Below are positions 1 through 47,004 of a stretch of DNA of 47,004 nucleotides, one piece after another. The position numbers were made by a program, and so were the translations under genes. Within the stretch, counting starts at the first letter, position 1. Each line of letters starts with the position of its first letter. This stretch comes from a virus: the IMG/VR virus record IMGVR_UViG_3300037430_000014, positions 1 through 47,004 of that record; one strand, written 5' to 3'. The notes under the pieces were generated by a model, which did not search any database, had not been told where the DNA came from, and was given only the letters and a program-made list of their open reading frames with translations.

Positions 1-227
1 CGAATCCCACCCACTAGGCTGCTACCCTGCCGCGCGGTCAGTTCGAGCACGAGTCTCTCGGGTCCCCAGGAGGGCCATCTATGGGCCGTCGCTACACCGG
101 TCGATTCAACGCGAGCACGATCCCCGCAACCAACGCGATCGACGTCTTCGAGTACACCGCGCCCTCGACCGGCATCGCCAAGGTGGTGGAGTGCTGCTTT
201 GGCATCGTCGGCACGGCGAAGTTCGGG
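1..227. repeat. Terminal direct repeat, left copy
   Basis: These 227 bases recur at 46778-47004. The first 80 (end of the upstream reading frame, a TACCCT box, the Shine-Dalgarno site) are identical. The coding part differs at positions 128, 158, 161 and 170 only, all third codon positions and all silent. This fits a circular or terminally redundant genome assembled from two closely related variants, or a second, nearly identical gene copy in a longer molecule. Positions 1-17 read as the last codons (N-P-T-H-stop) of the gene that ends at 46794, which favours circularity. Confidence 0.9.
23..28 (+). promoter_or_regulatory. TACCCT box, possible -10 element
   Basis: TACCCT lies 52 bases before the ATG at 81, in the only gap between the end of the upstream structural gene and this gene. 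The same CTACnCT core recurs in other gaps (31229, 34341, 36369, 42883, 43174, 43296). No good -35 box is visible here, so a promoter role is inferred only from recurrence. Confidence 0.3.
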
Positions 228-584
228 GACGCGCAATCGGAGGGGATCAACGTGTCCTTCGTGCGCGGCAGCTCGGGCAGTACCAGCGGCTCGGGCGGCT
301 CGAGCTTGACGCCCGTCGCCCACGAGGACGGCGACGCGGCGGCCGACGGCGTGCTCGAGGCGCTCAACACGACCGTGATGGTCGCGGGCGGTGGCTCGGT
401 CACGACCTGTTGGGACGAACCCTTCTTCCTGCAACTCGGCTTCGCCTACCGGCCCAAGGACGGGATCGAGTGGTTCGTCTCGCCGTCCAACCGCTTCGCG
501 GTGCGCCTGCCGGTCGGCCCTGCGACCGTGCTCACGACCATAGTGGCCGGGCACTTCACGTTCGAGGAGATCGGCGGCGCGTAG
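81..584 (+). CDS. Small structural protein, beta-rich, probable virion surface or fibre component
   Basis: The 167-residue product has no catalytic motif. It resembles, from memory, a widespread family of uncharacterised phage proteins of 130-170 residues that begin M-G-R-x-Y and carry a Gly/Ser-rich SGSGGS loop followed by N-T-T and G-G-G turns; both signatures are visible (residues 68-76 and 96-105). Alternating hydrophobic residues suggest beta strands. The start is well supported: AGGAGG at 68-73 sits seven bases upstream of ATG. It lies between two related large structural genes (44920-46794 across the junction, and 610-2166), so a shared particle role is likely. The first 49 codons are duplicated at the right end of the window with silent changes only, so the protein is under purifying selection. 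Confidence 0.7.
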   Translation: MGRRYTGRFNASTIPATNAIDVFEYTAPSTGIAKVVECCFGIVGTAKFGDAQSEGINVSFVRGSSGSTSGSGGSSLTPVAHEDGDAAADGVLEALNTTVMVAGGGSVTTCWDEPFFLQLGFAYRPKDGIEWFVSPSNRFAVRLPVGPATVLTTIVAGHFTFEEIGGA

Positions 585-609
585 GCGACCCCGGTAGGGG
601 CGCGCCGTC

Positions 610-2166
610 GTGGTCGATCAGATCGCGGTCGTCACGTTCACGACGCCGGCGGCGACCGGCCTCCTGTCCGTCACCTCGCCGCTGATCACCGAGGCGTTCT
701 CGGCGGCGCTCCTGATCTTCACCCGCGAGGAGTCGGACGGCACCGACAACAGCCATGCGGTGCTGGGCTATGGGTTCATCGCGCCCGACGGCGCGACGCC
801 GCCCAACGCCTCCATCTGCATCCAGATCGACAACTCCTCGACGCGCACCACGCCCGACGCGAACACCGTGCACGATGGCGGGGGCGGGGCGAACGCGCTG
901 AGCGCGGCCAACGGGGTCGGCACGACCCTCGTGATCGGCGCGAGCTACAACGCCTCGGTCGCGGGCGGGGTACAGCTCAACTTCACGGTCGTCAACCTCA
1001 CGGGCGGCCCGGCCGGCGGCCCCGTGCGGGCGAAGTGCACCGCCATCCTGTTCGCGGGCCTCGCGCGAGCGCACGTGAACCAGTGCACCTCGTCGGTGGG
1101 CGGCACCGCCGAGGCCGTGGGCGACACCGTCAACTTCCGGCCGGACCTGGTCTTCTTCTCGGCGTCCGACGCGGCCTCGACCACCAACCACGCCGACGGC
1201 CTCGTGACGCTTGGGGTCGCGATCGACCGTGCCGGCGCGCCCCAGGTCTCGAGCTACATCAACTTCGACGACGCGACCGAGCCGACCGACGCGGACGGGG
1301 TCGCGCACACGGCGAAGTGCTACTCCCACCAGCTCCCGATCGTGGCGCGCACGGCGGAGTCGGTGACGTGCGCGATCACCGCCACGGGCTTCACGCTGAC
1401 CTCCAGCGCGGGCTCGCCCGACGCCAACTACCTCGCGCTCAAGTTCACCTCGAGCGCGGTGCGCCTTGCCTGCGCCCAGCACGCGGTGGCGGCCGCGACA
1501 GGGCCGCAAGCGTTCAACGCCTTCACGTTCACGCCCGACTTGGTCGTGGGCATGGTGGTGCCGCTCGCCGCCGCCGACTCCCAGACCGACGGGCCGACGG
1601 CATCGGCGGGCGGGTACTTCGTGACAGGGCGCTACGGCTCGAGGGCCTACACGGTGCACGCCGAGGAGGGGAAGACCGTCGGGGCGGCGGCCTCGTTCAA
1701 CACGCACACGCGCCAGGAGGACGTGGCCCTCCTGCTCTACAACCACACCGGCACGATCATCCAGCGGGCGACCTGGACCGGGGCGAGCGGCGCGGGTGGG
1801 TTCATCCTCGACTTCTCGGTGGCGAGTGCGGTCTCGCGCATGATGGCCCTTGGGATCCAGCTCCAGCCGCAGGGCGCGCGCAAGGGGGGTAGGCGGCCGC
1901 GGAAGATCGTCACGCGGGCGGCAGCCCCTCGGGCGGGACGCGCGAGCGTAGGCCGTCCTGGAGCGTCCAGGCTGCACCTCTTCCGGGCCTGGTTCCGCCG
2001 CCGGGCCGAGCAGCTCGAGGCGCTCTTCTACCGCCGGCCGCCGATCCCCAACTCCGTGCCCGAGCCCGAGGACGTGCCGGAGGGCGCGATCGGGGACAGC
2101 GCGATGGGCGGATCGGACCGCGGATCGAACGCTCAGGCTGGCTCGGAGGACGGCGCGACGAGATGA
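610..2166 (+). CDS. Large structural protein with basic C-terminal region, paralogue of the 44920 gene
   Basis: The 518-residue protein looks like a virion surface protein. Residues 1-420 are rich in Thr, Ala, Val and Gly with alternating beta-type periodicity and two similar halves (DLVFFSASDAA and DLVVGMVVPLAAA both follow an F-x-P-D turn). Residues 425-475 are Arg/Ala-rich and probably disordered. The end carries IGDSAMGGSDRGSN, almost identical to the end of the protein encoded at 44920-46794, so the two are paralogues or share a tail-anchoring module. Start is GTG at 610 with a weak upstream site (GGTAGGGG). It follows the small structural gene by 25 bases and its stop overlaps the next gene's ATG. 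No enzyme motif is visible. Receptor-binding or capsid-decorating roles are both possible. Confidence 0.65.
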   Translation: MVDQIAVVTFTTPAATGLLSVTSPLITEAFSAALLIFTREESDGTDNSHAVLGYGFIAPDGATPPNASICIQIDNSSTRTTPDANTVHDGGGGANALSAANGVGTTLVIGASYNASVAGGVQLNFTVVNLTGGPAGGPVRAKCTAILFAGLARAHVNQCTSSVGGTAEAVGDTVNFRPDLVFFSASDAASTTNHADGLVTLGVAIDRAGAPQVSSYINFDDATEPTDADGVAHTAKCYSHQLPIVARTAESVTCAITATGFTLTSSAGSPDANYLALKFTSSAVRLACAQHAVAAATGPQAFNAFTFTPDLVVGMVVPLAAADSQTDGPTASAGGYFVTGRYGSRAYTVHAEEGKTVGAAASFNTHTRQEDVALLLYNHTGTIIQRATWTGASGAGGFILDFSVASAVSRMMALGIQLQPQGARKGGRRPRKIVTRAAAPRAGRASVGRPGASRLHLFRAWFRRRAEQLEALFYRRPPIPNSVPEPEDVPEGAIGDSAMGGSDRGSNAQAGSEDGATR

Positions 2167-3859: not shown

Positions 3860-4119
3860 GGGACCAATCGAAGGGCCTGAAGAGCCGGATCGCCGCGCGC
3901 GACGAGAAGGGCCAGATGCAGGAGGACCGCCAGCTTCTGGCCGAGCTCGAGCTCGCCAACGTCGCCTACGACTGGGAGAAGGACGTGCTCGAGGAGGTGA
4001 GCCGGCGCCTCTACCACGAGCAGCGCGCGCTTTTCGAGCACCAACGACGCTCGGCGCGCGAGATCATCGGCAGGCGCCGCGGGCGGCCGGGACCGCCGCG
4101 CATCGCCGACGACGAGTGA
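3856..4119 (+). CDS. Small hypothetical protein between terminase subunits
   Basis: The 87-residue charged product is predicted to be almost entirely helical (QEDRQLLAELELANV, VLEEVSRRLYHEQRALFE), with an Arg-rich C-terminus. It starts with GTG overlapping the small terminase stop and ends in a GTGA overlap with the large terminase. It may act with the packaging complex because of this position; no family is recognised. Confidence 0.65.
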   Translation: MRDQSKGLKSRIAARDEKGQMQEDRQLLAELELANVAYDWEKDVLEEVSRRLYHEQRALFEHQRRSAREIIGRRRGRPGPPRIADDE

Positions 4120-6551: not shown

Positions 6552-6565
6552 CGCTCGCCGACGTC

Positions 6566-7069
6566 GTGCGGATGCCGGCGGGCGAGGCGAAGCTCGGAGC
6601 CGACCGCTGGAACTTCATCGTGGACCCCGCGGTTGCCCAACCATCGGACCTCCTGCGCGACGCCGTGACCGTCCTGGTCGAGAACGCGATCCTGTGGCTC
6701 CGCCACGAGCGGCGGCGCGCGCACATCTGGGTCACCGGGCACAGTCAGACCCTGACGCACCCGGATCGGTTCCCGCGCGAGATCGCCGTCTGGGGCGTCC
6801 CCAAGGACGAGGCGACCTTTGCCATGCATCACGTCCAGTTCTGGCCCCTCAACCCGAACATGATCATCGGGCCCGGCGGGGTGCCGCGGGAGGCCCCCGC
6901 CTTCTTCCTCGCCCTGGAGCTCGCCTGCGCGACGCTCGGGGCGAAGCGCGTGCGGGTCTTCGGCTCGCACTCCTGGCGCGCGCCCGAGGAGCGCTGGCAG
7001 CGTTGGACGCTGGCTCAGTGCGTCCGGATCGGCGGCGCGCGCGGGGTCGAGATCGAGCGCATCCGGTAG
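6566..7069 (+). CDS. Hypothetical protein, possible Rossmann-like nucleotide or sugar-binding domain
   Basis: The 167-residue product starts at GTG 6566 or ATG 6572; 14 bases separate it from the terL stop. It has two hydrophobic strands (HIWVTGHSQ, and AKRVRVFGSHSW) and a helix LALELACATLGAKRV. That last pattern resembles the A-x-x-x-G-A-K/R-R-I/V-x-L-x-G segment of a Rossmann-like phage protein group related to DUF115/MptE. The resemblance is from memory and weak. It is a cytosolic protein without a membrane segment, located between the terminase and a run of small basic proteins. Confidence 0.6.
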   Translation: MRMPAGEAKLGADRWNFIVDPAVAQPSDLLRDAVTVLVENAILWLRHERRRAHIWVTGHSQTLTHPDRFPREIAVWGVPKDEATFAMHHVQFWPLNPNMIIGPGGVPREAPAFFLALELACATLGAKRVRVFGSHSWRAPEERWQRWTLAQCVRIGGARGVEIERIR

Positions 7070-7115
7070 CCGAGGCCACTTGAACCAGGGTGACGGCGGG
7101 AGCAGACTGCCGGCC

Positions 7116-7460
7116 ATGCAGACCCCCGGTCACGGCAGTAAGGGCAGCTACCGAAAGCAGGTGCTTCACATGAAGGGACCCGGACGAGTCGGTGTCACGC
7201 CGAAGCAGGTCTCCCTCGACGCTGGCGGCATCCGCAAGAAGGGTGGGGGCGGGAACATCCGCAAGACCGGCGAGCTCTCCTACGGGGGCGGGCGGCCGAA
7301 GTCGACCGGCGGGGGGCGCACGGGGACCGCCCACTTCGGGGAGAACGTCGGGAACAACGGCGGGCCGGGCTGGGCGGCCCCCAAGCAGATCTCGCGCAAC
7401 GGGTTCCGTGACCCGAGCGCCTCGGGCAAGCGCAAGGGCTTCTCCGAGCGGGGCAAGTAG
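7116..7460 (+). CDS. Gly/Lys-rich basic protein
   Basis: The 114-residue product is strongly basic and rich in Gly, Lys and Ser (GGIRKKGGGGNIRKTGEL, GRPKSTGGGRTGTAHFGENV), so it is probably largely disordered and could bind nucleic acid. ATG 7116 is chosen; in-frame TTG 7080 and ATG 7170 are alternatives. It is the first of three consecutive small basic genes just upstream of the portal, which suggests head-associated or DNA-associated roles. No family is recognised with confidence. Confidence 0.6.
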   Translation: MQTPGHGSKGSYRKQVLHMKGPGRVGVTPKQVSLDAGGIRKKGGGGNIRKTGELSYGGGRPKSTGGGRTGTAHFGENVGNNGGPGWAAPKQISRNGFRDPSASGKRKGFSERGK

Positions 7461-7462
7461 CC

Positions 7463-7672
7463 GTGGCGCGCTCCCAGCGGATCCCGGCGCGCCTCGCGCG
7501 CCAGAAGCGGGTCGGGCCGGCGGCGCAGCTCCGCTACGAGTCCGACGAGCGCTTCGCACGCGAGCAGATGAAGGCGAAGCTCTCGGCCCAGAACAAGCCC
7601 AAGGGCGTCGCCCGGCGCGGGCGTGGCGAGACGGGCATGAACGCCGGCACGATCGGCCGCGCGCGCTTCTAG
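7463..7672 (+). CDS. Small basic protein
   Basis: The 69-residue product (GTG start two bases after the previous stop) is rich in Arg, Lys and Gln, with a helical centre (YESDERFAREQMKAKLSA) and a Gly/Arg-rich end. It is likely nucleic-acid or head associated, judging only from charge and position between two other basic genes. Function unknown. Confidence 0.55.
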   Translation: MARSQRIPARLARQKRVGPAAQLRYESDERFAREQMKAKLSAQNKPKGVARRGRGETGMNAGTIGRARF

Positions 7673-7681
7673 ACCCATCCC

Positions 7682-7834
7682 ATGCCCTCCAAGACGAAGC
7701 GCCAGCGCGGGGCCATGTTCGCCGCGTGCGCGGGGAAGAGCCGCATCGGGATCCCCCAGAGCGTCGGGTGCGAGTTCGCCGCGGCCGACCGCAAGAAGGC
7801 GCACGCGAAGAAGCGCAAGCGGCGCGGGCGGTAG
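7682..7834 (+). CDS. Very small basic protein of a common phage family
   Basis: The 50-residue product begins MPSKTKRQRGAMFAAC and continues with KSRIGIPQSVGCEFAAADR, then a Lys/Arg tail. This matches, from memory, a frequent uncharacterised phage family with the pattern MPSKSxxQxRxMAA followed by GIPxxVxxEFxxAD. The conserved pattern makes the gene credible despite its length. It ends seven bases before the portal start. Confidence 0.65.
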   Translation: MPSKTKRQRGAMFAACAGKSRIGIPQSVGCEFAAADRKKAHAKKRKRRGR

Positions 7835-7841
7835 GCCCTCG

Positions 7842-9740
7842 ATGCTGAAGGCCGCAAGTCAGGCGAGCCTCATGCTCCAGGAGATTCGCTCCGCGGAGGA
7901 GTGGATCGCGGGCTTCTTCCAGGACTGGGACAACCGGATCGCCCGCTACCACGGGCCCGGATGGCGGCCCGCGGGGACGACCGGCGAGAGCGAGCCGGAC
8001 CCCGAGAACTTCTCGTATGAGTGGGCCGCCAACTACTTCCCGAAGCTCGTGCTCGGGAACCCGCGTGTGCGCATCTCCACCACGCGCACCGGCGTCGAAC
8101 GTCTGTTCGTGAAGGCGCACGAGCTCGCGCTCAACCGCTGGATCCGCGAGACGAAAATGAAGGTCTTGAACGAGAAGCTCGCGATCGACTGGGGGCACCA
8201 TCGGGCGATCTGCCTGATCCTCCCGGCTCAGGATTCGCTCTACTCCGACCTCGACGACCCGAAGAACTGGCCGAGCGCGAAGCGCGTGTCGCCCAAGCGC
8301 TACGTCTACGACGTCCAGGCGATCGAGAAGGAGGAGGAGCTTTGGCGCGGGTACAAGACGCGCCACCAGCGCCACGAGCTCCTCGAGCGCGCCGACGACG
8401 AGCCCAAAGAGGGGTGGATCACGAGCGCCATCAAGGCACTCGGCCAAGAGGCGGGCATGGACGAGATGCGCCCGAGCGGCCGCGGTCGCGACGGTGCGCC
8501 CGAGCGCGACGAGGTCGTGCTCTACAACGTGTGGGTGCGCGACTACGAGCCGACGAAGGCCGACCGTGCCTTCTTCGGCGAGGAGGCGTGGGACAGGAAA
8601 GACCGCGTCGGGGCGTGGCTCACGCTCGGGGTCGCGGGCGACGACGTGTCCGACTGGGTGCGCCGGCCCTTCCCGTACTGGGGCCACCGCCGCGGGCCCT
8701 TCGTGATCATCGACGGGTACATGATCCCCGACGAGCCCGTTGGCCTCGCCCAGATCCCCGCGGTCGAGTACCAGACCCGCGAGCTCAACAAGCACGCGCG
8801 CGGGCTCTCGCGCGCCATGGCCTCGTACAAGCGCGGAGTGCTCGTCGACGGCTCGGACCCCGAGTTCTCCGAGAAGATCGAGAGCTTCAAGGACCAATTC
8901 GTGGTCGGGCTCGACGGCCTGACCGACGTGAAGAGCAAGGTCATGCAGATCGAGCTCGGCGGTGCGACCGAGCTCCACATCACACACAACGAGCTCCTGC
9001 GCGACCGCGTCAACCGTGCCTCCGGCATCACCGACGTGCGCGGGAAGGGGCTCACCGACCCGCGCGTGACGGCGACGGCCGACAGCATCGCGGACGAGGG
9101 CATGCGCGACCGCACGGGCTTCCCGCAGGGCAAGTTCATCGACGGGATCAACGAGATCCTCGAGAACGCTAGCTACTACATGGCCCACGACAACACGCGC
9201 ACCGAGCTCGGGCCCGAGGCCCTGCGCGTGCTCCGCGACCCCGAGAGCGGGAAGCCGATCGAACAGGCCGTGTACTACGGCGGCGGCATGGACGACGACG
9301 CCGCCGCCTGGTTCGACTCGCTCTCCATGACGATCGAGGCTTACTCGATGGGCCAGACGAGCGAGCAGCTCGAGCAGCAGCGCGTGCTCCAGCTCATGAA
9401 CACTGTCGCGGTGCTGATCCCGATGATGGCTCAGTACCCCTTCGTCCTGTGGGACGACCTCATTGAGACGCTCGGAGAGATGATGAACATGGAGAACCTC
9501 GGGGACTACTTCGACCCCGAGGCGCTGGCGCAGTTCCAATCGTTGATGCTCCAGGGCCAGGAGATCACGGCGCAGTCGGGCGGGGGCAAGGCGCAGCCGC
9601 GCCTGAACCGTGACGTGTCGCGCATGCTCGGCGGGAGGCAACAGGTGCCGAAGGCCGGCAACCTGCTCGGGTCGCTCCTCTCCTCGGCCCAGACCGCGCG
9701 CCAGGGCGCGCAGCCGGTCTTCCAGGGGGCGGGCGCGTGA
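7842..9740 (+). CDS. Portal protein
   Basis: The 632-residue protein is the probable portal, the dodecameric ring through which DNA enters and leaves the head. Evidence is size, position (after terminase, before scaffold and capsid), and sequence character: an N-terminal aromatic helical part, FSYEWAANYFPKLVLGNPRV, a central wing and stem with AVEYQTRELNKHARG and DRVNRASGITDVRGKG, and a Gln-rich C-terminal helix (EQLEQQRVLQLMN) ending in a flexible tail. The pattern fits portals of short-tailed phages with separately encoded adaptors. The stop overlaps the next GTG. No unusual features. Confidence 0.8.
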   Translation: MLKAASQASLMLQEIRSAEEWIAGFFQDWDNRIARYHGPGWRPAGTTGESEPDPENFSYEWAANYFPKLVLGNPRVRISTTRTGVERLFVKAHELALNRWIRETKMKVLNEKLAIDWGHHRAICLILPAQDSLYSDLDDPKNWPSAKRVSPKRYVYDVQAIEKEEELWRGYKTRHQRHELLERADDEPKEGWITSAIKALGQEAGMDEMRPSGRGRDGAPERDEVVLYNVWVRDYEPTKADRAFFGEEAWDRKDRVGAWLTLGVAGDDVSDWVRRPFPYWGHRRGPFVIIDGYMIPDEPVGLAQIPAVEYQTRELNKHARGLSRAMASYKRGVLVDGSDPEFSEKIESFKDQFVVGLDGLTDVKSKVMQIELGGATELHITHNELLRDRVNRASGITDVRGKGLTDPRVTATADSIADEGMRDRTGFPQGKFIDGINEILENASYYMAHDNTRTELGPEALRVLRDPESGKPIEQAVYYGGGMDDDAAAWFDSLSMTIEAYSMGQTSEQLEQQRVLQLMNTVAVLIPMMAQYPFVLWDDLIETLGEMMNMENLGDYFDPEALAQFQSLMLQGQEITAQSGGGKAQPRLNRDVSRMLGGRQQVPKAGNLLGSLLSSAQTARQGAQPVFQGAGA

Positions 9741-21811: not shown

Positions 21812-24800
21812 ATGGGCTGGCTCGACGACTACGAGGCCGCCGCGGGGATCGAGGCGCCGGTCGCGGCGCCGGTCCAGGAGCCCGAGGGGCCGCAGACCGC
21901 GGCGCCAGCCGCCGGTAGCGCCGCGCCGGCTGCGCCCGCCGCGCCGAAGAGCTGGCTCGACGAGTACGAGGCGGAGCTCCCCCCGACCGACACCGAGGCG
22001 ATCCAACAGGCGGCGGGGTCCTTCGCGCGCGGCGTCGCGAGCGTGCCCGCGAGCGTCTCCCAGGCTGTTGGGATCGCGGCCAAGCACTTCGGGGCCGAGG
22101 ACTTCGGCCAGGGCGCCGAGGAGTTCGGGCAGGCGATCACCCAGGTTGCGAAGGACGTGATCCCCGAGGTGTCGCGCCTCTCGGGCAACTTCATGCTCTC
22201 CCAGCTCCCTCAGGCGCTCGGGTCCTCCGTCGGCTTCCTGGTGCCGGGCGGCGCGCTCCAGGCGCTCGGGGTGCCGGCGGTGCTGACGACCATGAGCCTC
22301 GGCGCCGCCGTCCAGGGCGCCGCCCAGTTCGAGGACGCGCGCCTCCACGGGGCCGACGAAGACACCCAGTGGACGGCCTACCTGCTCGGCCTCGGGGTCG
22401 GCACGACCGAAGCCATCCCGCTCGCCGGCATGCTGAAGCGCGCGGACGAGGGCTCCGGCGGGACGCTGAAGCAGGCGCTCGTGCACATGCTCGTCGAGGG
22501 CGTCGAGGAGTTCACGCAGGAGACGGTCTCCCAGGTCGCCTCGAACGTGATCGCCGGCCACGTCCTGAAGTACGACAAGGACCGTGAGATCCTCGAAGGG
22601 GCGCTCGAGAACGGCGCCGCGGGCTTCCTCTCGGGGGTGCTGCTCTCGGCCGGCGCGAGCGCGGCGGCGCATTCGGCCGCGGCCGAGCAGGGGGAAGGCG
22701 CGCCGAAGGAGGACGAGCGCTCAGGGGAGCCACACCGCCGGCAGCCCGAGCGCGTCGAGGCCGAGCTCACGGGGGTGCGCCAGGAGGCGGGGCCGGAGCC
22801 CGAGGCGGCTGCGCCCGCGCCCGAGGCCGAAGCGGCGCCGGCACCCGAGGCCGTGGCTCCGCCCGAGGAGGCCACGCCGGCCAAGGCCGCCCAGGCGGCG
22901 GGCGAGACCTACGCCCACGGCGAGGACCCCGAGTCCTCCATCCCGATCCCGCTGAAGTCGACGCTCTCGAAACCGACCGCCGTCCCGATCTCCGACCTCG
23001 AGCAGAAGCAGCTCGAGCGCTTCAAGGAGGGCGTCACGCCCGAGCGCGTCGAAAAGCTCGCCGAAGCGATGAGGCAGGGGAAGACCATCCCGCCGGTGCT
23101 CGCGATTCGAACGCCGAAGGGCGCGCTGCGCGTGCTCGACGGACACCACCGGATCGCCGCCGCGCAGAGCCTCGGGTACACAAGCGTGCCCGTCGTGATC
23201 GTCGAGGGGCCCGGCGGCGCGGCCGCGAAGGCGAAGGCGGCGCCCAAGCCCGAGCTCCCGACCGGCGACGCCGACCTCGCGCAGGCGGCGCAGCGGCTCG
23301 TGCGCGAGTACGGCGGCGTCCCCGAGGAGGAGGAGGACATGCCGGCCGCGCTGCAGCTCGCCGAGCGCGTGCTCGCCAACCGCCGCGACGCCGGGATCGA
23401 GCCGACCGAGCTCGACACGGCGCTGTCGGAGCTCGTGAAGGCGACGCGCGCGGAACCGGAGATCCCGGGGTCGAGCGAGGAGGGGGCGCAGACGTCGTAC
23501 GCGCAGGCGGCGCTCGCGCGCGCCAAGGCTGCGCTCGCTGGGCCGAAGGCGGCTCCGGTCGAAGAGACGCACGTGACGGAGGAGGGGCGCTTGATGCCCG
23601 GCAAGGGGCCCGAGGGCGCCGCGCGCTCCGGCGTGGAGTGGCTCCGCCGCCAAGCCGAGAAGCGCCTGACCGCGGCAAAGGCGTCGCTCGAACAAGCGCG
23701 CGCCGACACCCGTCCCGCAACGGAGCGCGTCAGGAAGAGCGGCCGCGGGTGGTGGGCGACGACCCTCGGAGGCGGGAAGGTCCCGTCCCCGTTCAAGACC
23801 CGCAAGGAGGCCCTCGAGTTCCTCGCGGGGTCCGACAAGACCATTCTCGAGTTGCGCGCTGATCAGGCTGCGCAAGCGGAGGCCGCGCTCGCCACGGCCC
23901 GCGAGAGAGAGAAAACCGAGAAACCTGTCCCCGCCGCCCCGCAGGCGCCGGTGACGGTTGAGCCGAAGAAGGCCGCCGCGCAGGCGATCTCCGAGGCCGC
24001 GACCGGCAAGCCCTTCACCGCCCGCACCATCCGCGGCCAAGGCCGCAAGGGCACTCCGTACTCGTACGCCGACGGGCCGATCCTCGGACCGGGCCGCTAC
24101 ACAACGAGCGACCTCGAGCACGCCAAGACGTTCGGGCCCACCATCACCGAGCACGACGTCACGCTGCGGAATCCGCTCGTGATCGACAGCGATCAACAGT
24201 GGCGCGACCTGACGAAGAAGGCCGGTTGGGCTTTCCCGAATCCGGAGGGGCAGCCTCGCCCGAAAATCGCTCAGGACGTGAAGCGCCTGCGCGAGCTGAT
24301 CGAGGCGCAGGGCCATGACGGGGTGATAGTGCGCCTGGACCCGAACGACCTCGACAGCACCATGCACAAGGTGTTCGGGGGCGACCAGGTCGTGGAGTTC
24401 GCGGCCGAGCCCGACAGTCCGCGCGAGCGTATACAGCAGGCCGATGAGGCGCTGTCTGCTCTTAGCGAGCAGGAGGAGCCGGATGCGAAGAGCGTGGCTC
24501 GCGCGCGTGCTCAGCGCGCGACCGCCGAGGCGGAGCTTCGCAAGCAGAGGGCCGCCGAGTCGCCCCCTACTCCGACGCCGGCCGAGGAGGCCGGGGTCAC
24601 CGAAGAGAACGAGGACATCGAGGAGGAGCCAGGCGACCAGAGCGTCGCGCTCGACCCGGGCGAGCTCCCGACCGAGATGCAGGCGGCCTACCCCTCCGAC
24701 CCGGCCATGGGCGGGGGCGCGAACCTCGGCAGCTCAATCGGCGGGCGCCTGCTCGGCGCGCTCGAGCCGCCCCCCGAGCCGCCGAAGGGCGGGCCCGTGA

Positions 24801-27800
24801 GCCGGCCTCAGATCATCGAGGCGCTCGCGAAGGTCGTGAAGGCGTCCGGCGGGAAGAGCCCGATCCGATGGGGCCGCATGGCGCAGCGCCGCGCGCGCGG
24901 CATCTTCAAGGTGGAGCCCGAGGTCATTCGTGTGCGTCAGGCGAACAACGTCTCGACCGCGGCGCACGAGGTCGGGCACGCGCTCGAGAAGCACATCCTC
25001 GGGTGGCCGAAGGGCACCCCCTGGAAGAAGGGCCTTGTGGACCGGCCGCTGCAGCGCGAGCTCGTGGCCCTCGGCAAGGTGCTGTACCCGAAGGGCGTCC
25101 CCGGCGGGGGCAGCATAAAGCGCGAGGGCTTCGCCGAGTTCATCCGGCTCTACACGATGGAGCCCGCGAGCGCAGAGGCGAAGGCGCCGCTCTTCTTCAA
25201 GTGGTTCGAGGGGCAGTTCCTCGTGGACGACCGCGCGCCGATCAAGGCGGCGCTGCTCGAGGTGCGGCGCCTCGCCGAGCTGTGGCGCACCCAGGGCTCA
25301 AAGGTGCGCGTCGAGCAGTCGATGGTCGAGCCCACGAGTCTGAAGGAGCAGGCGCGCCGCCTGCGCGAGCGCACGACGGCGGAGGCGGTGACCACGGCAT
25401 GGATCGAGGCCGGCGCGCCGCTCAACGCGTTCGCGCGCGAGGCCGAGCGACGCATGGGGCGCCTGCTCAACCCGAGCGAGGACCCCTTCTACCTGTTCCA
25501 GGCGCTGCGCTCGACGCACTCGGCGCGCGTGCGCCAGATGATCGAGCAGGGCATGGTGAACCTCGCGGGCGAGCGCGTGGGGCCGGCGCTCGACGAGATC
25601 CGCGGCCTCGTCAAGGGCCGGTACAAGGACTTCCTCGTGTACCTGTACGCGAAGCGCTCGATCGCGCTGCTCACCGACCCGAAGGGCGCGCGGGAGCCGG
25701 GCATGTCGATCCAGGACGCTGAGCAGGCGATCACCGAGGTCGGCTCGCCCGAGTTCGAGCTCGCGGCGCAGAAGTTCTACGACTTCGCCGACGGCGCCCT
25801 GAACTACGTCGCGCAGGCGTCGCCGACCATGGCGCGCACGGTCGAGGCGATCCGCGCGCGCGACCCGGGCTCCTACATCCCGCTGCAGCGCGAGTTCGAC
25901 GAGCTCGATTCCATCTGGGCCGAGTCGAAGAAGCGCTCTGGCGTGCGCGCGGGCGGCGGCTCGGTCGCGGCGCGCCTGCGCGGCTCGGGCCGGCGGATCA
26001 AAAACCCTCTGCCGGTGCTGCTCTCCAACGTCGAGCGAATGGTGCTCGCCGCGCACCGTCGGCTCGTGCTCGATCAGGTGATCAAGCTCTCCTCGATCGA
26101 GGGGCTCGGGCACCTCATCGAGGAGGTGCCGGTCGACAAGGTCCCGCATTCGGCGGACGTCGCAACCCTCGTGAAGGAGCTGCAGAAGAAGCACGGGATT
26201 TCCGCGGTGGACGAGGAGGGGAACAAGGTCGACGTCGACGACTTGATGGGCGAGGCGATCACGTTCTTCGCGCCCGCGCAGTTCCCGAAGGGCCAGGACC
26301 CCGTTATCCCGGTGTGGGACGGCGCGCGCGTGCGTTGGTACCAGCTCGATCACCGCCTCGCCTCCATGCTCGCCGGGATGGACGTCTACCGGCTGCCGAA
26401 GGTCGCGGACATCCTCCTTGGCATGCCGGCGCGCGCGTTCCGCCTGGGCACGACAGGCATCAAAGCGAGCTTCGGGCTCGTCACCAACCCGATCCGCGAC
26501 CCGCAGAAGCTCTATCAGATCACGCGCTCGAGCGCGTGGGCCCCGCGGATCTTCCTCGAGTACTTCAAGCAGCTCGGCGTGGCGGGCCTGCACCGCATCA
26601 CCGGCGGCAGGTACAGCTCGCCGTACCTCGACCTCTTCCTGCGCCTCGGCGGCGAGATGGCGCAGCCGCTCGGGATGGACATGCGCCACACCGAGCGCGC
26701 CGCGCGCCGGCTCTTCCAGGGCCGCGCGGTCCGGATCCTCGACCCGCGGAACGCGCTCGACTTCCTGCGCGACCTCCTGCAGTTCCCCGAGACCGCGGCG
26801 CGCCTCACCGAGCTCAAGCTCGTTGCGAAGGATCTCGGGTGGGCGCCGGGCCAGCCCCTGACGATCGACCAATCCCTGCAGCTCCTGCTCGCCTCGAAGC
26901 AAGCGACGGTCGACTTCACCGCCGCGGGCAACCTCGCGCGCGTCATGAACCAAGCCGTGCCGTTCTTCAACGCGCCGATCCAGGGGCTGCGCGCCGACGT
27001 GCGCGCCGCGCGTCGCGCGCCCGGTCAGTACCTCTTCCGCGGCCTCCAGATGACCGCCGCGACGCTCGCGTTGTGGTGGTACAACAAAGACAAGGAGTGG
27101 TATCGCGAGCTCTCCGCGCGAGCTCGGGCACTGTACTGGGCGCTTCCGTTCCAGTGGAACGGGCGCGAAGAGCTCGCACTCCTCCCGCGGGCGCAGGAAG
27201 GGCCGATGCTCTTCGCGTCGATTCCGGAAGCGCTGGCCGATGCCTGGTATCGACAGGACCCGAAAAGCGCGACCCAGTTCTTCTCTCCGATCTTCGATCA
27301 GATCGCGCCGAACGCCGTCCCGGTCATCCCCAAGCAAATCTATGAGTGGGCTGCCAACCGTGACACGTTCTGGGATAGCCCGGTCGTGCCGACGGGCGAG
27401 CTCCGGCGCGCGCCCGAGGAGCAGTACGGCGAGTACACGAGCAGGGCCGCGCGTTTCCTCGGTGGTCTATTCAAGGTCTCGCCGCGGAAGATCGACCACG
27501 CTATCAAAGGCACGTTCGGCGGCGTGGCGCAGGATGTCGTCGACGTCCTCGGCCTCGGTGCGCCGAAGGAGCGTGGCGGCGGCGAGCTCGCCGACCTTCC
27601 CGTGGTCGGGCGCCTCTTCCAGCGCGGCGGGCCGCTCGGCGTCCGGCCGCAGTCGGTCCAGGACGTCTACGACGCGATCGAGAAGGCGGACCAGCGCCAA
27701 GCCTCGACTACAAAGAAGGAAACCGGGGAGGAGCGACAGACTCGGCTCATGCTCGAGGACGCGGGCCAGGCGATCTCGGCGCTCTCCTACGTGCGCGGCG

Positions 27801-27958
27801 AGACGAAGGATGTCGACCAGCGTCGCGAGCTCACGCGCGAGATGGTTGCGATCGCGCAGGAAGCCATGAAGAATGCCAAGGCGGGCACCGCGGTGCGCGG
27901 GCCGCTCCAACAGAAGCGCAAGCAAGCCGAGCGGCTTGAGGAGATCATGAAGCGATGA
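21812..27958 (+). CDS. Giant polyvalent virion protein: ParB-like, ADP-ribosyltransferase-like and metalloprotease-like domains
   Basis: This 2048-residue protein is probably packaged and injected. Visible order: two WLDDYEAA/WLDEYEAE repeats (residues 3-57); hydrophobic helices (100-290); a ParB/Srx-like domain at about 385-470 with DGHHRIAAAQSLGY (Asp443-His446); an ADP-ribosyltransferase-like domain at about 730-870 with GPGRYTTSDLEHAKTFG and HGHDGVIV-type ending; a zincin-like domain with HEVGH at 1052-1056 and a later GFAEF; then a long helical part with NPIRDPQKLYQ and MNQAVPFFNAPIQG, like the LPD38-type domain of large polyvalent proteins. Such fusions are known as 'polyvalent proteins' of phages and conjugative elements, thought to protect incoming DNA from host defences. 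Individual activities are inferred from motifs only. Confidence 0.78.
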   Translation: MGWLDDYEAAAGIEAPVAAPVQEPEGPQTAAPAAGSAAPAAPAAPKSWLDEYEAELPPTDTEAIQQAAGSFARGVASVPASVSQAVGIAAKHFGAEDFGQGAEEFGQAITQVAKDVIPEVSRLSGNFMLSQLPQALGSSVGFLVPGGALQALGVPAVLTTMSLGAAVQGAAQFEDARLHGADEDTQWTAYLLGLGVGTTEAIPLAGMLKRADEGSGGTLKQALVHMLVEGVEEFTQETVSQVASNVIAGHVLKYDKDREILEGALENGAAGFLSGVLLSAGASAAAHSAAAEQGEGAPKEDERSGEPHRRQPERVEAELTGVRQEAGPEPEAAAPAPEAEAAPAPEAVAPPEEATPAKAAQAAGETYAHGEDPESSIPIPLKSTLSKPTAVPISDLEQKQLERFKEGVTPERVEKLAEAMRQGKTIPPVLAIRTPKGALRVLDGHHRIAAAQSLGYTSVPVVIVEGPGGAAAKAKAAPKPELPTGDADLAQAAQRLVREYGGVPEEEEDMPAALQLAERVLANRRDAGIEPTELDTALSELVKATRAEPEIPGSSEEGAQTSYAQAALARAKAALAGPKAAPVEETHVTEEGRLMPGKGPEGAARSGVEWLRRQAEKRLTAAKASLEQARADTRPATERVRKSGRGWWATTLGGGKVPSPFKTRKEALEFLAGSDKTILELRADQAAQAEAALATAREREKTEKPVPAAPQAPVTVEPKKAAAQAISEAATGKPFTARTIRGQGRKGTPYSYADGPILGPGRYTTSDLEHAKTFGPTITEHDVTLRNPLVIDSDQQWRDLTKKAGWAFPNPEGQPRPKIAQDVKRLRELIEAQGHDGVIVRLDPNDLDSTMHKVFGGDQVVEFAAEPDSPRERIQQADEALSALSEQEEPDAKSVARARAQRATAEAELRKQRAAESPPTPTPAEEAGVTEENEDIEEEPGDQSVALDPGELPTEMQAAYPSDPAMGGGANLGSSIGGRLLGALEPPPEPPKGGPVSRPQIIEALAKVVKASGGKSPIRWGRMAQRRARGIFKVEPEVIRVRQANNVSTAAHEVGHALEKHILGWPKGTPWKKGLVDRPLQRELVALGKVLYPKGVPGGGSIKREGFAEFIRLYTMEPASAEAKAPLFFKWFEGQFLVDDRAPIKAALLEVRRLAELWRTQGSKVRVEQSMVEPTSLKEQARRLRERTTAEAVTTAWIEAGAPLNAFAREAERRMGRLLNPSEDPFYLFQALRSTHSARVRQMIEQGMVNLAGERVGPALDEIRGLVKGRYKDFLVYLYAKRSIALLTDPKGAREPGMSIQDAEQAITEVGSPEFELAAQKFYDFADGALNYVAQASPTMARTVEAIRARDPGSYIPLQREFDELDSIWAESKKRSGVRAGGGSVAARLRGSGRRIKNPLPVLLSNVERMVLAAHRRLVLDQVIKLSSIEGLGHLIEEVPVDKVPHSADVATLVKELQKKHGISAVDEEGNKVDVDDLMGEAITFFAPAQFPKGQDPVIPVWDGARVRWYQLDHRLASMLAGMDVYRLPKVADILLGMPARAFRLGTTGIKASFGLVTNPIRDPQKLYQITRSSAWAPRIFLEYFKQLGVAGLHRITGGRYSSPYLDLFLRLGGEMAQPLGMDMRHTERAARRLFQGRAVRILDPRNALDFLRDLLQFPETAARLTELKLVAKDLGWAPGQPLTIDQSLQLLLASKQATVDFTAAGNLARVMNQAVPFFNAPIQGLRADVRAARRAPGQYLFRGLQMTAATLALWWYNKDKEWYRELSARARALYWALPFQWNGREELALLPRAQEGPMLFASIPEALADAWYRQDPKSATQFFSPIFDQIAPNAVPVIPKQIYEWAANRDTFWDSPVVPTGELRRAPEEQYGEYTSRAARFLGGLFKVSPRKIDHAIKGTFGGVAQDVVDVLGLGAPKERGGGELADLPVVGRLFQRGGPLGVRPQSVQDVYDAIEKADQRQASTTKKETGEERQTRLMLEDAGQAISALSYVRGETKDVDQRRELTREMVAIAQEAMKNAKAGTAVRGPLQQKRKQAERLEEIMKR

Positions 27959-29013
27959 GCGACGCCGACCTGATCCGCATAGCTTCCGAGCTCGAGGCGA
28001 ACGCGGCCGAGCTGCGTGCGTTGGCCGGCACGTCGCCGCCGATTCCGCCCCCTACGACGATCAAGGGCGTGTGGACCAGCGCGAACGAGCTCCTGCGCCT
28101 TCCGGCGAGCGGACCGGCGTGGACCGCCCTCCTGTCGTGGGCGAACAAGTCCGCCACACCGCGGGTGTCCGACCAGGACGATGCGAGCGACGTCGTCACG
28201 GTCGCGAAGGCCCTCGTCTACGCGCGCACCGGCGAGACAAAGTACAAGTCCGAGGCCCAGGCCCTGTGTCTCGCTGCCATCGACACCGAGGCTGGGGCTC
28301 GAGCGCTCGCCCTCGGGCGCAACCTGATCGGGTATGCCGTCGCCGCCGATCTGTGCGGGTTCCGCGACCCGACCTTCACCGCCTGGCTCGACCGCATGCG
28401 GCGCTTCCTCACCGTGGACGGACCGAAGACGTTGATCGAATCGCACGAGAAGCGCCCGAACAACTGGGGCACGCACGCCGGGGCCAGCCGCGCGGCGATC
28501 GCGGTGTACCTCGGCGACCAGGCCGACCTCGACCGCTGCGCGCGGGTCTTCCGCGGGTGGCTCGGGGACGCGGCCGCCTACACGGGCTTCGAGTGGGGGG
28601 ACCTCTGGTGGCAGGCGGACCCAGCGCATCCGCTCGGGATCAACCCGCGCGGCGCGATGCGGGATGGGCACTCGATCGACGGCGTGCTGCCGGACGACCA
28701 GCGGCGCGGCGGTCCCTTCGTCTGGCCCCCGCCGAAGGAGAACTACGTCTGGGAGGCGCTCCAGGGCGCACTCGCGCAGGCGCTGGTGCTGAGCCGGGCG
28801 GGCTACGTCGCGTGGGAGTGGAGCGACAAGGCGCTTCTCCGCGCGGTGGCGTGGCTGCATTCGCAAGCGAACTTCCCCGCGGAGGGTGACGACACCTGGC
28901 TGCCGCACCTCGTCAACTGGGCCTACGGCACGACATTCCCGGCCCCCGTTCCGAGCTCGCCCGGCAAGAACGGCGGCTTCACCGACTGGACGCACCAAGG
29001 AAGGCGCGCATGA
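27955..29013 (+). CDS. Alginate-lyase-like polysaccharide lyase, tail associated
   Basis: The 352-residue protein resembles the alpha/alpha-toroid alginate lyase family. Helices line up as LALGRNLIGYAVAADLCG, then the family signature NNWGTHAGASRAAIAVYLGD (Asn169, Asn170, His174), where Asn and His are the usual catalytic residues, and the ending FPAPVPSSPGKNGGF-TDWTH seen in phage members. It would cleave uronic-acid-containing polysaccharide on the host surface by beta-elimination. There is no signal peptide, as expected for a virion component. ATG overlaps the stop of the giant injected protein, and its own stop overlaps the beta-helix spike gene, so all three are co-made. The substrate cannot be inferred. 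Confidence 0.7.
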   Translation: MSDADLIRIASELEANAAELRALAGTSPPIPPPTTIKGVWTSANELLRLPASGPAWTALLSWANKSATPRVSDQDDASDVVTVAKALVYARTGETKYKSEAQALCLAAIDTEAGARALALGRNLIGYAVAADLCGFRDPTFTAWLDRMRRFLTVDGPKTLIESHEKRPNNWGTHAGASRAAIAVYLGDQADLDRCARVFRGWLGDAAAYTGFEWGDLWWQADPAHPLGINPRGAMRDGHSIDGVLPDDQRRGGPFVWPPPKENYVWEALQGALAQALVLSRAGYVAWEWSDKALLRAVAWLHSQANFPAEGDDTWLPHLVNWAYGTTFPAPVPSSPGKNGGFTDWTHQGRRA

Positions 29014-43219: not shown

Positions 43220-43516
43220 TGTCCCCAGCCCGCTCAGGTCGGCTCGGTGCACGCCCTCGCCGGTGGAGCCTGCGAAGCGTGTGCAACCACGTGACTACCC
43301 TGGTGCCCGGGACCCCTCATGGCTTGATCGGCCAGGAGGCGGGTCTCGAGGGCCGCGCCCACCAAGAGGCGCTTGCCGACTCGGGATCCTTGGGAGGCTC
43401 AGCAGGGGGCGACCCCGGCCGTGCGCGAGCGGCCAGTGCTGAAGACCCGGAGGGCCGCTTGCGGCCCCGTGGGCTCCGACCCTTCAACCGCGGCGCGTGA
43501 CGAGGAGCTCGAAGGC

Positions 43517-44923
43517 ATGATCGGCAAGGGCACGGCGGTCTCGGCTGGGTTGCTGCTCGTCGCGGGGGTGGCGCTGGTCGTCACGCAGCACGGGCTGCGG
43601 CGCTCCCTGCGCCCGGCCGGCGCGCCCATCACGTTCGCCCCTCGGGCGCCCGAGGCTGGCCCTGGGAACGCGCTGGTCGTCGTGTGGGACGACGTGAGCG
43701 CCGACGACGTGGCGGACCTCGAAGCCAAGCTCGCCGCCCTGGGCCTGCCCTGCGCGATCCAGGGGCTCGCGGACGGGGGCGTGTCCTTCGCGAAGGCGTA
43801 CGGGGCGCCAGTGTGCTCGCCCTCGCGCTGGTCGCTGCAGGGTTCCACGTGGCACTTCGACGAGTGCGGCATCGGGTGCGACCCCATGCCCGGGGCCGAG
43901 TTGAGCGCAGGGCTTGAGTCCATGGCCGAGCTCGCCGGCCGCGCCGGGGTGACGCACCGCGGGTTCTTCGGCAAGTGGCACCTCGGGGGCGCGCCATCGG
44001 GCGGCTCGTACCTCCAGGCGCCCTACGAGCACGGCTACACCTACGCCGACTGGACGCCCGGCAACATGAACGCGCCAGGCGGCGCCGAGGGCTCGTGCGG
44101 GGGCACGGGGTACACGTCCTGGTTCTTCGTGCCGGACGGGACAGACCCAGCTCGGGCGGGGCTCACGACGCTCTACAACCCCACGATGATCCTCGGGCGG
44201 CTGCTCGCCTGGCGCGACACGCTCACGGGCTCGAGCGAGTCGCATCTCGCGGTGTGGAACGTGTCCCTGCCGCATGCGCCCTTCCACACGGTGCCCTCGA
44301 GCGCGCGCCCTCCTGGCTACCCCGCCATCGTGATCAGCGACCACGACCGTTACCTGCAGATGCTCGCGACCGCTGACTACGAGCTCGGCCTCTTCCTCGC
44401 CGGCATCGACCTCGCCGATTGGCTCGTGATCGTCGTGGGCGACAACGGGACGCCGCAGCAGGTAGCGCCCGACCCCTTGAGGGCGAAGACCACGACCTTT
44501 GAGCGCGGGGTGCGCGTGCCATTCGTGATGGCGGGCGCCGGGCTCACGCACTACGACTCGCCGCGCCTGGTGCACCTCGCCGACGTTCTGCCGACGCTCG
44601 CCGAGTACTGGGGCGTGAACCCTCCGGCTGGGATCGACGGGCTCTCGGTCGTGGGCGGGGCCGTGCACCCCTTCGTGCTCACCGGGCAGTCGGGAGGCTG
44701 GTTCGGGGGCAACCCCGCGGTGCCAGGGGACTGGGCCGCGATCGGCCTGGGTGCCTCGGGCTGGTGGAGCCTGCGCCGGCATGGGCTGCCCTCGTTGCCG
44801 GTCGCCGAGGAGCTCTACGACTTGAACGCCGACCCCGAGCAGATGAGCCCGCTCGACCCCGCGACGAAGCCGGCGTTGAGCCAGTACCTGCGCGCGAAGC
44901 TCTTGGCGGAGGGCCTGCCCTGA
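43517..44923 (+). CDS. Sulfatase (arylsulfatase family) with N-terminal membrane signal
   Basis: The 468-residue protein has the full set of type I sulfatase signatures. VVVWDDVSADD (Asp58, Asp59) binds metal. VCSPSRWSLQGS holds the C-x-P-S-R motif whose Cys100 must be oxidised to formylglycine. FFGKWHLGG (Lys153, His155) is the second signature. VVGDNGTP (Asp309, Asn310), GVRVPFVMAGAG, HLADVLPTLAE and ELYDLNADPEQ follow in family order. Residues 7-24 form a signal or anchor (VSAGLLLVAGVALVVTQ). ATG 43517 has GAGGAG upstream; the earlier in-frame part is not protein-like. Activation needs a host formylglycine-generating enzyme. It is translation-coupled to the structural gene at 44920, so the enzyme may be on the virion or at the infected cell surface, removing sulfate from polysaccharide. 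Confidence 0.88.
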   Translation: MIGKGTAVSAGLLLVAGVALVVTQHGLRRSLRPAGAPITFAPRAPEAGPGNALVVVWDDVSADDVADLEAKLAALGLPCAIQGLADGGVSFAKAYGAPVCSPSRWSLQGSTWHFDECGIGCDPMPGAELSAGLESMAELAGRAGVTHRGFFGKWHLGGAPSGGSYLQAPYEHGYTYADWTPGNMNAPGGAEGSCGGTGYTSWFFVPDGTDPARAGLTTLYNPTMILGRLLAWRDTLTGSSESHLAVWNVSLPHAPFHTVPSSARPPGYPAIVISDHDRYLQMLATADYELGLFLAGIDLADWLVIVVGDNGTPQQVAPDPLRAKTTTFERGVRVPFVMAGAGLTHYDSPRLVHLADVLPTLAEYWGVNPPAGIDGLSVVGGAVHPFVLTGQSGGWFGGNPAVPGDWAAIGLGASGWWSLRRHGLPSLPVAEELYDLNADPEQMSPLDPATKPALSQYLRAKLLAEGLP

Positions 44924-46794
44924 TCATCCGGTCGCCGAACGCGGCGGCCCCGACGACCGGCACGCTGCCCGTCTCGCAGTCGATCACCTCGGCCTCAGGC
45001 CCTGGCTCGAACAAGACCCCGATGGCGGCGCTGTTCCGCGGCAGCGCGGGGACGGCCTTGGGCACGCCGGTGAACGCGCACCGCGTCCTCTGGGGCATGA
45101 CGGACGGGACGACGAAGCGGGCCCTCGGCGCGATGGCCGAGAACAACCAGCTCACGAGCAACCAGGACTGCCGCACGCGGATCAGCAACACGCACGTGAT
45201 CGACGCGCCCTTGGGCGCCTCGGGTGCGGTCAACGGCCTTGCCGAGTTCACGTCCTTCATCACCGGCGGGGCGACGATCTCGTGGACGGACCTGCTCAAC
45301 GCGGCGTCCATCTTCGCGCCGGTCAACTTCTACGACCTCTCGAACGTGACGGTCGTGGAGTTCACGCACACGGGGGCGCAGAACGCGACGCAAAGCGTGC
45401 CGGATCTCGGGTACGTGCCCGACTTCGCCATCTTCTACTCGCACTGGAGCGCCTACGCGGCCGACTCCGACACCGCGGACGGGCGCACGGGCTACGGGTG
45501 GGCGATCAGGCGGCTGGACGGCTCGATCCAGCAGTGGTGTTGGAACGATCAGAACCAGGACCGGGCGGCGCTCGACTTCGCGGGCGCCTCGTCCCTGCGG
45601 GATGACACGTGCGTGTGGCAGGTCGACGAGACGACCGACGGCAGCGCGCTCGAGCTCACGACCTGGAGCACCACGCCGACGTTCACGAAGCGCAACGCGG
45701 CGGCGAACGTGTCGACGGCGATCCTGTTCGGGCGGTTCAAGGAGCGCCGGCAGCTCTTCGCGGGGATCCTGCCGACGACCGATCCGGGCGGTGGTGCGCC
45801 CTGGCTCGACACGTCCACGACGGGCCAGAAGCTGATCACGTGCGGGGTGTCGCCGGCCGCCTACTTCATCGTGGGCACGACGCTCGGGACGAAGAACAGC
45901 ACCAACCGCAGCAACTCGATCCGCTCGCAGTTCTCCGAGGGGGTGTGGACGGGGTCGGAGGAGACCTGCATCGGCGCCCAGGCGGGGGACACCAACGGGG
46001 GCATCCCGGCCAACTCGGCGACCCGGAGCCAGACCTCGGCGAAGATCGTGCACGTCCTGAAGAGCGTGAACGGGGCGGGCGGGGGCGCCGCGGTGTCCGA
46101 CTGGGAGGCGTCCCACGTCGCCGCGGAGGCGACAGGGCCGAGGGTCAATATCGACGTGAACTCGGCCGCGGGGCGCCTCTCGGCCATCGTCGTCATCGGC
46201 GGGGTGCTGACGCCAGCGCCGCGCGCGCGCCAGGCGCCCGTCCGGCTGCCCGCGCGGGCCCGCCCTGCCCGGATCGTGCATCCGGTGCACCGGCGCGTCA
46301 CGGCGAAGCACGAGCTTGCCGCGCACGGCCCTGCGCAGCCTGCGCCCTCGAGGGTGCAGCTCCCGCACGTCAAGGTCGGGCACCGCCGGCACGCCCAGGC
46401 GCCTGCGCCCTCGCCGGCCCAGGCGAGCTCGAGGGCGCCCTCGCCGACCCATGCGCACCCCTCGAAGCTCGGGCGCACCGCGAGGCACGCGGCCCCACGC
46501 CCGGCGATGCGGGCGCCCGCGATCCCCCGGCCGCCGAGCCTCGGCTCGCCGCCGGTGCGCGTCGGGCCGCGCTCGCCCCGCCAGGCGGCGACGCGGTTCA
46601 TGCTGCTCATGCTCTGGGACCGCCAGCAACGCGAGCGGCGCGAGTCGTGGCGCCGCCAGCTCCTCGAGATGGCCGAGCAGACGGCCTTCGAGCGGGTCAA
46701 AACCGACTTCCGGGGCTCGAACGCCATGGCGGGCTCGGAGATCGGCGACAGCGCCATGGCGGGCTCCGACAGGGGATCGAATCCCACCCACTAG
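44920..46794 (+). CDS. Large structural protein with basic linker, paralogue of the 610 gene
   Basis: The 624-residue protein is beta-rich for about 430 residues (ATISWTDLLNAASIF, VPDLGYVPDFAIFYSHWSAY), followed by a long Ala/Pro/Arg/His-rich disordered linker (about 435-565), a helix (RRESWRRQLLEMAEQTAF), and the end AMAGSEIGDSAMAGSDRGSN, nearly identical to the end of the 610-2166 product. No ATG or GTG precedes the conserved start. The best choice is CTG 44920, whose CTGA overlaps the sulfatase stop as ATGA or GTGA do elsewhere. ATG 45022 would lose a conserved N-terminal strand. A virion surface role is likely. Confidence 0.65.
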   Translation: MIIRSPNAAAPTTGTLPVSQSITSASGPGSNKTPMAALFRGSAGTALGTPVNAHRVLWGMTDGTTKRALGAMAENNQLTSNQDCRTRISNTHVIDAPLGASGAVNGLAEFTSFITGGATISWTDLLNAASIFAPVNFYDLSNVTVVEFTHTGAQNATQSVPDLGYVPDFAIFYSHWSAYAADSDTADGRTGYGWAIRRLDGSIQQWCWNDQNQDRAALDFAGASSLRDDTCVWQVDETTDGSALELTTWSTTPTFTKRNAAANVSTAILFGRFKERRQLFAGILPTTDPGGGAPWLDTSTTGQKLITCGVSPAAYFIVGTTLGTKNSTNRSNSIRSQFSEGVWTGSEETCIGAQAGDTNGGIPANSATRSQTSAKIVHVLKSVNGAGGGAAVSDWEASHVAAEATGPRVNIDVNSAAGRLSAIVVIGGVLTPAPRARQAPVRLPARARPARIVHPVHRRVTAKHELAAHGPAQPAPSRVQLPHVKVGHRRHAQAPAPSPAQASSRAPSPTHAHPSKLGRTARHAAPRPAMRAPAIPRPPSLGSPPVRVGPRSPRQAATRFMLLMLWDRQQRERRESWRRQLLEMAEQTAFERVKTDFRGSNAMAGSEIGDSAMAGSDRGSNPTH

Positions 46795-47004
46795 GCTGCT
46801 ACCCTGCCGCGCGGTCAGTTCGAGCACGAGTCTCTCGGGTCCCCAGGAGGGCCATCTATGGGCCGTCGCTACACCGGTCGATTCAACGCGAGCACGATCC
46901 CCGCGACCAACGCGATCGACGTCTTCGAGTACACGGCACCCTCGACTGGCATCGCCAAGGTGGTGGAGTGCTGCTTTGGCATCGTCGGCACGGCGAAGTT
47001 CGGG
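46778..47004. repeat. Terminal direct repeat, right copy
   Basis: Copy of positions 1-227 with four silent differences. Includes the TACCCT box (46800-46805) and AGGAGG site. Confidence 0.9.
46858..47004 (+). CDS. Partial second copy of the small structural gene
   Basis: The first 49 codons are present and give exactly the same residues as the gene at 81-584. The reading frame runs off the window end. Either this is the same gene seen again after circular wrap-around, from a slightly different genome variant, or a true second copy. Confidence 0.75.
   Translation, partial: MGRRYTGRFNASTIPATNAIDVFEYTAPSTGIAKVVECCFGIVGTAKFG

Follow-up and report, generated by a model that had tools for sequence, protein, structure and literature searches.

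A predicted formylglycine-type sulfatase encoded beside a fibre-like gene in an uncultivated tailed phage

The virus record IMGVR_UViG_3300037430_000014 carries a gene whose product we identify with near-certainty, from its profile, fold and residues, as a formylglycine-type sulfatase of the S1 family. Phages are well known to encode enzymes that trim host glycans; to our knowledge, removal of sulfate by phages has hardly been described. What appears to be new here is that a phage sulfatase keeps its catalytic residues intact and that its gene is coupled to that of a fibre-like protein across diverged phages; already known are the kind of enzyme and an unnamed related family in PHROGs, phrog_19870. 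That the pair is kept in distant viruses suggests that some phages chemically trim the sulfated coat of their host.

Results

The phage genome

The window, as we call the whole 47,004-base stretch analysed (GC 69%), has clear phage hallmarks: genes for the small and large terminase subunits, RecE- and RecT-like genes, a polyvalent protein gene and repeated ends. The first three of these, judged from sequence, mark it as a tailed phage. The 227-base end repeat (Table 1) indicates that the record is self-closing or terminally redundant, which would place the run of genes containing the sulfatase before window 81-2166. The relative that we term L009 has the gene order of the closed window: its homologue of the sulfatase's downstream partner is followed by a 172-residue gene and then by a homologue of window 610-2166. 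The 172-residue gene is a counterpart of window 81..584 by position. A search for sigma-70-like promoters found none, 0.1 being expected.

Two large genes drew attention in their own right. The 2048-residue polyvalent protein (window 21812-27958), relatives of which are present in the records of L009, L021 and L014, has an LPD38 domain, a sub-threshold ParB match and a weak match to virion RNA polymerase. In the 811-residue frame of the terminase large subunit (window 4116-6551) similarity to terminases begins near residue 334. Residues 89-332 match Intein_splicing weakly (4.2e-5, short of the Pfam threshold), so the terminase may contain or be preceded by an intein.

Table 1. Positions of the sulfatase gene, its neighbours and other features in the window
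Feature	Position	Strand	Remarks
Third gene of sulfatase run if the record closes	81..584	+	167 aa
Fourth gene of the run	610..2166	+	518 aa; L009 homologue 47% identical, same order
Alginate-lyase-like protein, possible partner enzyme	27955..29013	+	352 aa; PF05426 2.3e-8, over cut-off
GAGGAG, probable ribosome-binding site	43502..43507	+	9 bases before ATG; from sequence
S1-type sulfatase gene	43517..44923	+	468 aa; ATG 43517, stop TGA 44921-44923
N-terminal hydrophobic segment GLLLVAGVALVV, signal peptide or anchor	43547..43582	+	12-residue Kyte-Doolittle mean 2.9
C-S-P-S-R formylglycine motif, Cys100 to Arg104	43814..43828	+	Cys and Arg kept in 11/11 viral copies
Partner gene, fibre-like, function putative	44920..46794	+	CTG start overlapping sulfatase stop; about 624 aa
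Terminal repeat	46778..47004	.	repeats window 1-227 (227 bases), 4 mismatches

The sulfatase and its fold

Codon-position GC (0.69/0.54/0.93) and the probable ribosome-binding site argue that the sulfatase reading frame is genuine; the coding score is highest from ATG 43517, the same frame being open further 5' to TTG 43373. The protein matches the Pfam Sulfatase profile, PF00884, over residues 51-366 with 65.4 bits against a cut-off of 25 (E = 6.8e-18). Non-sulfatase members of the alkaline phosphatase superfamily fell below their cut-offs: PF01676 with 14.4 of 24.3 bits (E 0.027), PafA with 11.1 of 650, iPGM with 10.5 of 330.65, and a weak match to PehA. The sequence-only reading, which had recognised the main sulfatase signatures and the C-x-P-S-R site, is borne out: the best profile is a sulfatase and not the non-sulfatase superfamily member that would have told against it.

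Structure prediction, which that reading had proposed as a check, gave a confident S1 sulfatase fold. The model, computed from a 20-sequence alignment, has a pLDDT of 86.5 and a pTM of 0.88, with most of residues 6-33 at low confidence; in structure comparison it scores Z 32-38 over residues about 47-468, the C-terminal part of the sulfatase fold included, and the 50 matches listed are all sulfatases. The best PDB matches by Foldseek are carrageenan and other S1 sulfatases (best 8.3e-23). By profile, the nearest solved relatives are 7stt (a Pedobacter yulinensis sulfatase), 9fo1 (S1_16) and the S1_19 carrageenan sulfatases 6prm, 6psm and 9hh3; most of the nearest are carbohydrate sulfatases, including some for carrageenan and GalNAc. 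Several sub-families (S1_16, S1_19, S1_25) differ by no more than about 2.5 Z units, with identities of 19-22%; with solved sulfatases only some 20% identical and sub-families tied, the substrate cannot be named.

Conservation of the catalytic set

S1 sulfatases carry the formylglycine motif C-x-P/A-x-R. The signatures seen in the window protein are D58-D59, C100-S-P-S-R104, G152-KWH155, H253, D309-N310 and K324, from which we take ten positions (Cys100 plus D, D, R, K, H, H, D, N and K) to have the catalytic and metal-binding roles familiar from the S1 family. In the residue-conservation alignment, from which 16 rows were dropped for length, these ten are invariant in 11/11 viral copies; all lie within the 28 invariant columns of 421 (hypergeometric p = 3e-13). 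A twelfth viral copy, L144, keeps the catalytic positions likewise when read by eye. Loss of Cys100 in relatives, named beforehand as a result that would speak against a sulfatase, was not seen: the residue is kept in all 12 viral copies, and in 77 of 78 viral and cellular rows. The motif proline is kept in 10 of the 11 aligned copies, and L144 has CSASR. In L014 (7890-9077) the motif reads CSQSR, glutamine replacing proline, with the remaining catalytic positions kept.

Relatives and their genomic settings

Scans of viral contigs with single proteins, sulfatase or terminase, found no relative; only alignment queries did so, giving 10, 10 and 6 loci. Removal of repeats and of L016, L017 and L018, which were judged bacterial-type from their lower similarity though their contigs are in the viral collection, left eleven viral relatives. 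Identity to the window sulfatase is 53% for L009 and L010, 47% for L021, 38% for L022, 35% for L011, and 27-33% for L012, L013, L014, L015, L024 and L144. Among 50,697 deposited phage records tblastn gave no sulfatase match at 1e-3; loosening the threshold to E 10 brought seven weak matches. Used as queries, the L015 and L014 copies brought up 20 and 3 records. Most are faecal contigs lacking annotation, and some of the others resemble pieces of bacterial genomes catalogued as phages. The expectation that viral sulfatases are rare thus fits the deposited phages, but it has to accommodate phrog_19870, already in PHROGs (6.8e-11).

A tree of 43 rows was built from 27 of the first 31 genome loci, L016 and L017 entered as 'cell', three plasmid rows and eleven viral rows, the window included; L144 was found later than the tree, the residue alignment and the hydropathy count, and was added by eye. 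The window falls in an all-viral clade with L009, L010, L021, L022 and L011 (96/93). A single viral origin for all phage sulfatases was rejected for the eleven viral rows (AU p = 0.00136), so that phages probably acquired sulfatases more than once. Two Planctomycetota copies (L032, L033) stand among the viral rows and L015 among the bacterial ones, with long branches in play; the bacterial relatives come from Planctomycetota, Bacteroidota, Myxococcota and others.

Several related sulfatase genes lie near packaging, head or baseplate genes: terminase and portal in L010 and L012, a virion structural protein in L014, a head protein in L024, and in L021 a terminase upstream on the opposite strand. 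The L022 record has genes for the major head protein, tail tube and tape measure, together with a DUF4055 gene that corresponds to a portal gene in L010. In L015 the sulfatase is one of a series of very large genes; upstream of it, within one block, stand Baseplate_J (PF04865 2.5e-16; phrog_6) and a wedge-like gene. A setting near virion genes, as the sequence-only reading had it, thus finds partial support in relatives. For a place within a tail or baseplate module the support comes from L015; in the window the neighbours match no named tail family in Pfam or PHROG.

The downstream partner gene

At the sulfatase stop the start codons ATG, GTG and TTG are all absent; overlap of the two genes requires CTG 44920, the alternatives being GTG 44764 or ATG 45022. 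Because L009 and L021 carry GTG at exactly this place, followed by a conserved I-I-R, CTG 44920 is likely the homologous start and the overlap is conserved. The overlap first noticed between stop and start thus stands, with the reservation that in the window it depends on a CTG. Partner homologues lie directly 3' of the sulfatase in L009 (61%), L021 (46%), L014 and L011 (29%), and also in L144, making 6 of 12 viral records with the window; in L022 the homologue is some 15 kb from the sulfatase. A profile search of the records, using a profile built from sulfatase neighbours with L144 and L022 outside it, found none in L010, L012, L013, L015 and L024. Four further viral loci (L135-L138) have partner relatives with no sulfatase seen within the available stretch, so the partner protein does not depend on the sulfatase.

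The partner has no Pfam or PHROG match, and its gene none among deposited phages. Its model, a poor one (pLDDT 58), shows beta structure throughout, apart from a long helix and a low-complexity tail, and its relatives terminate in repeats; it is by appearance fibre-like, and probably a particle-surface protein. Foldseek returned nothing at E <= 0.001, which leaves glycan binding a guess. No named fold was assigned: in a further structure comparison the top score was Z 7.2, for a C1q-type trimer complex, and lectin and phage tailspike entries ranked lower, which we took as no result. The 'structural gene' and 'late operon' of the sequence-only reading were thus inferred ahead of any family match to the partner or any sigma-70-like promoter.

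Another kind of gene adjoins the sulfatase in L012 (3698-4036) and L013 (9185-9541), a small lipoprotein-like gene directly 3', which in L012 overlaps the stop by 4 bases. Small lipoproteins of similar look occur in L010, L127, L130 and L122.

The N-terminal segment, maturation and companion enzymes

The window sulfatase begins with a hydrophobic segment. A hydrophobic N-terminal 12-mer (Kyte-Doolittle average over 2.0) is present in 8 of 11 viral copies and L144 looks signal-like by eye, giving 9 of 12, with cleavage and topology judged by hydropathy and by eye only; L021 has a lipobox-like LAAC. L009, L014 and L015 lack a hydrophobic start and begin at or just before the core strand. With nine of twelve copies so equipped, export or membrane anchoring appears no less likely than incorporation into the virion, which stays plausible for some copies, L015 above all. 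For the window copy the data lean to the alternative once raised from its membrane segment, action at the infected cell surface.

No Pfam-family match to a formylglycine-generating enzyme was found among the 36 other window proteins, so maturation would depend on the host. Eight phage records likewise yielded none (0/8) in a weak search, the same method having missed the sulfatase itself. On a faecal contig catalogued as phage, which may be bacterial (L007, 883-3857), a membrane sulfatase is directly followed by a gene that by eye resembles an anaerobic sulfatase-maturing radical-SAM enzyme.

The proposal that desulfation opens the way for lyases is weakly supported: the genome has an alginate-lyase-like gene, in whose product no signal peptide was seen, and homologues occur in 1 of 10 related records, that of L022, with two such genes. 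These two (L121), an 818-residue protein with metallophosphatase, PKD and alginate-lyase-like parts (6462-8918) and a second lyase-like protein (5030-6205), lie between portal-type and head genes and have signal-like starts.

Discussion

The explanation that we prefer, at about even odds, is that a host-matured sulfatase, exported or anchored late in infection, desulfates a glycan of the host surface or matrix alongside the fibre-like protein. On this account the gene would make a working formylglycine-dependent enzyme, whose Cys100 would be converted in the cytoplasm by the formylglycine-generating enzyme of the infected cell; the N-terminal hydrophobic segment would then export or anchor it, probably late. 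At the cell surface, and after lysis, it would strip sulfate esters off a sulfated surface or matrix polysaccharide of the host, for which a sulfated coat is assumed. The fibre-like neighbour may bind the same kind of glycan, and the pair could tune binding and release: fewer progeny would be trapped on coat debris, fewer would re-adsorb, and the alginate-lyase-like enzyme might attack more easily. The copies without a hydrophobic start, 3 of 12, count against it. We also consider, tentatively and as rather improbable, that the two proteins form a conserved receptor-processing pair, a glycan-binding fibre translationally coupled to an enzyme that desulfates the receptor, in which the host's formylglycine-generating enzyme would decide whether the phage clears its own receptor; such a pair would be comparable to a binding protein with a receptor-destroying enzyme.

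That the sulfatase is instead a component of the virion, on tail or surface beside the fibre-like protein, desulfating the host coat at adsorption and so enabling binding or depolymerisation, is unlikely but to be taken seriously. Coupling to the fibre-like gene would suit it, as would the L015 copy, downstream of Baseplate_J and free of a signal segment, and the L009 and L014 copies, which also have none. Hydrophobic N-terminal segments are, however, unusual for tail proteins, and the window copy and eight other viral copies carry one; nor was fusion to a virion domain seen. An auxiliary metabolic role, in which the infected cell would gain sulfate or sugar released from sulfated glycans in its surroundings, seems improbable. 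Polysaccharide sulfatases are common in Planctomycetota, Bacteroidota and Myxococcota, phyla among those supplying the bacterial relatives, but the gene is accompanied by a fibre-like gene instead of recognised genes for uptake or catabolism, and this pairing is kept across diverged phages. In favour of such a role, a review (PMC10029852) counts sulfatase among the sulfur-cycle genes of groundwater viruses.

Activity on a non-sulfate ester, phosphonate or phosphodiester, would make the protein another hydrolase of the alkaline phosphatase superfamily. Promiscuity is common in that superfamily and there are the sub-threshold PF01676 (0.027) and PehA matches, yet PF00884 is so far ahead, and the 50 structural matches listed so uniformly sulfatases, that we regard this as very improbable. 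Hardest of all to credit is that the gene is inert cargo or a bacterial one misassembled into the record. Bacteria do have sulfatases in abundance and the record is an uncultivated contig, but gene order and overlap recur in other viral records, the clade that holds the window copy is all-viral, and none of the catalytic residues is missing.

If the enzyme is active, sulfated bacterial coats would be under direct attack by phages, through an enzyme requiring post-translational modification by the host, and such phages would be a new source of carbohydrate sulfatases. The open-access literature searched, subscription papers being outside our scope, yielded no characterised phage sulfatase, only the mention in the review cited above. 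Papers on related topics report alteration of host sulfatase activity after lysogeny (PMC6359870), a phage-encoded formylglycine-generating enzyme (PMC10232697) and an FGE-sulfatase domain in tail proteins (PMC12724379), and treat bacterial sulfatases (PMC9853417) and bacterial capacity (PMC7416419).

Compared with known systems, the window protein shares with S1 sulfatases (PF00884) the fold, the C-x-P-S-R motif, the metal- and sulfate-binding residues, the length and the C-terminal part; it differs in being phage-encoded, in its coupling to a fibre-like gene and in its identity of about 19-22%. The phage family phrog_19870, for which no function is given, matches the N-terminal third of the protein. 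Proteins of giant viruses annotated as sulfatases (Yasminevirus, Tetraselmis virus 1; BFVD) have the same fold, but belong to viruses of eukaryotes and are 11-14% identical. The polysaccharide depolymerases and deacetylases borne on phage tails are alike in acting on host surface glycans and in being encoded near tail or surface genes; unlike them, the sulfatase would strip a decorating group and need maturation of its cysteine by the host, and it often has an export-like start.
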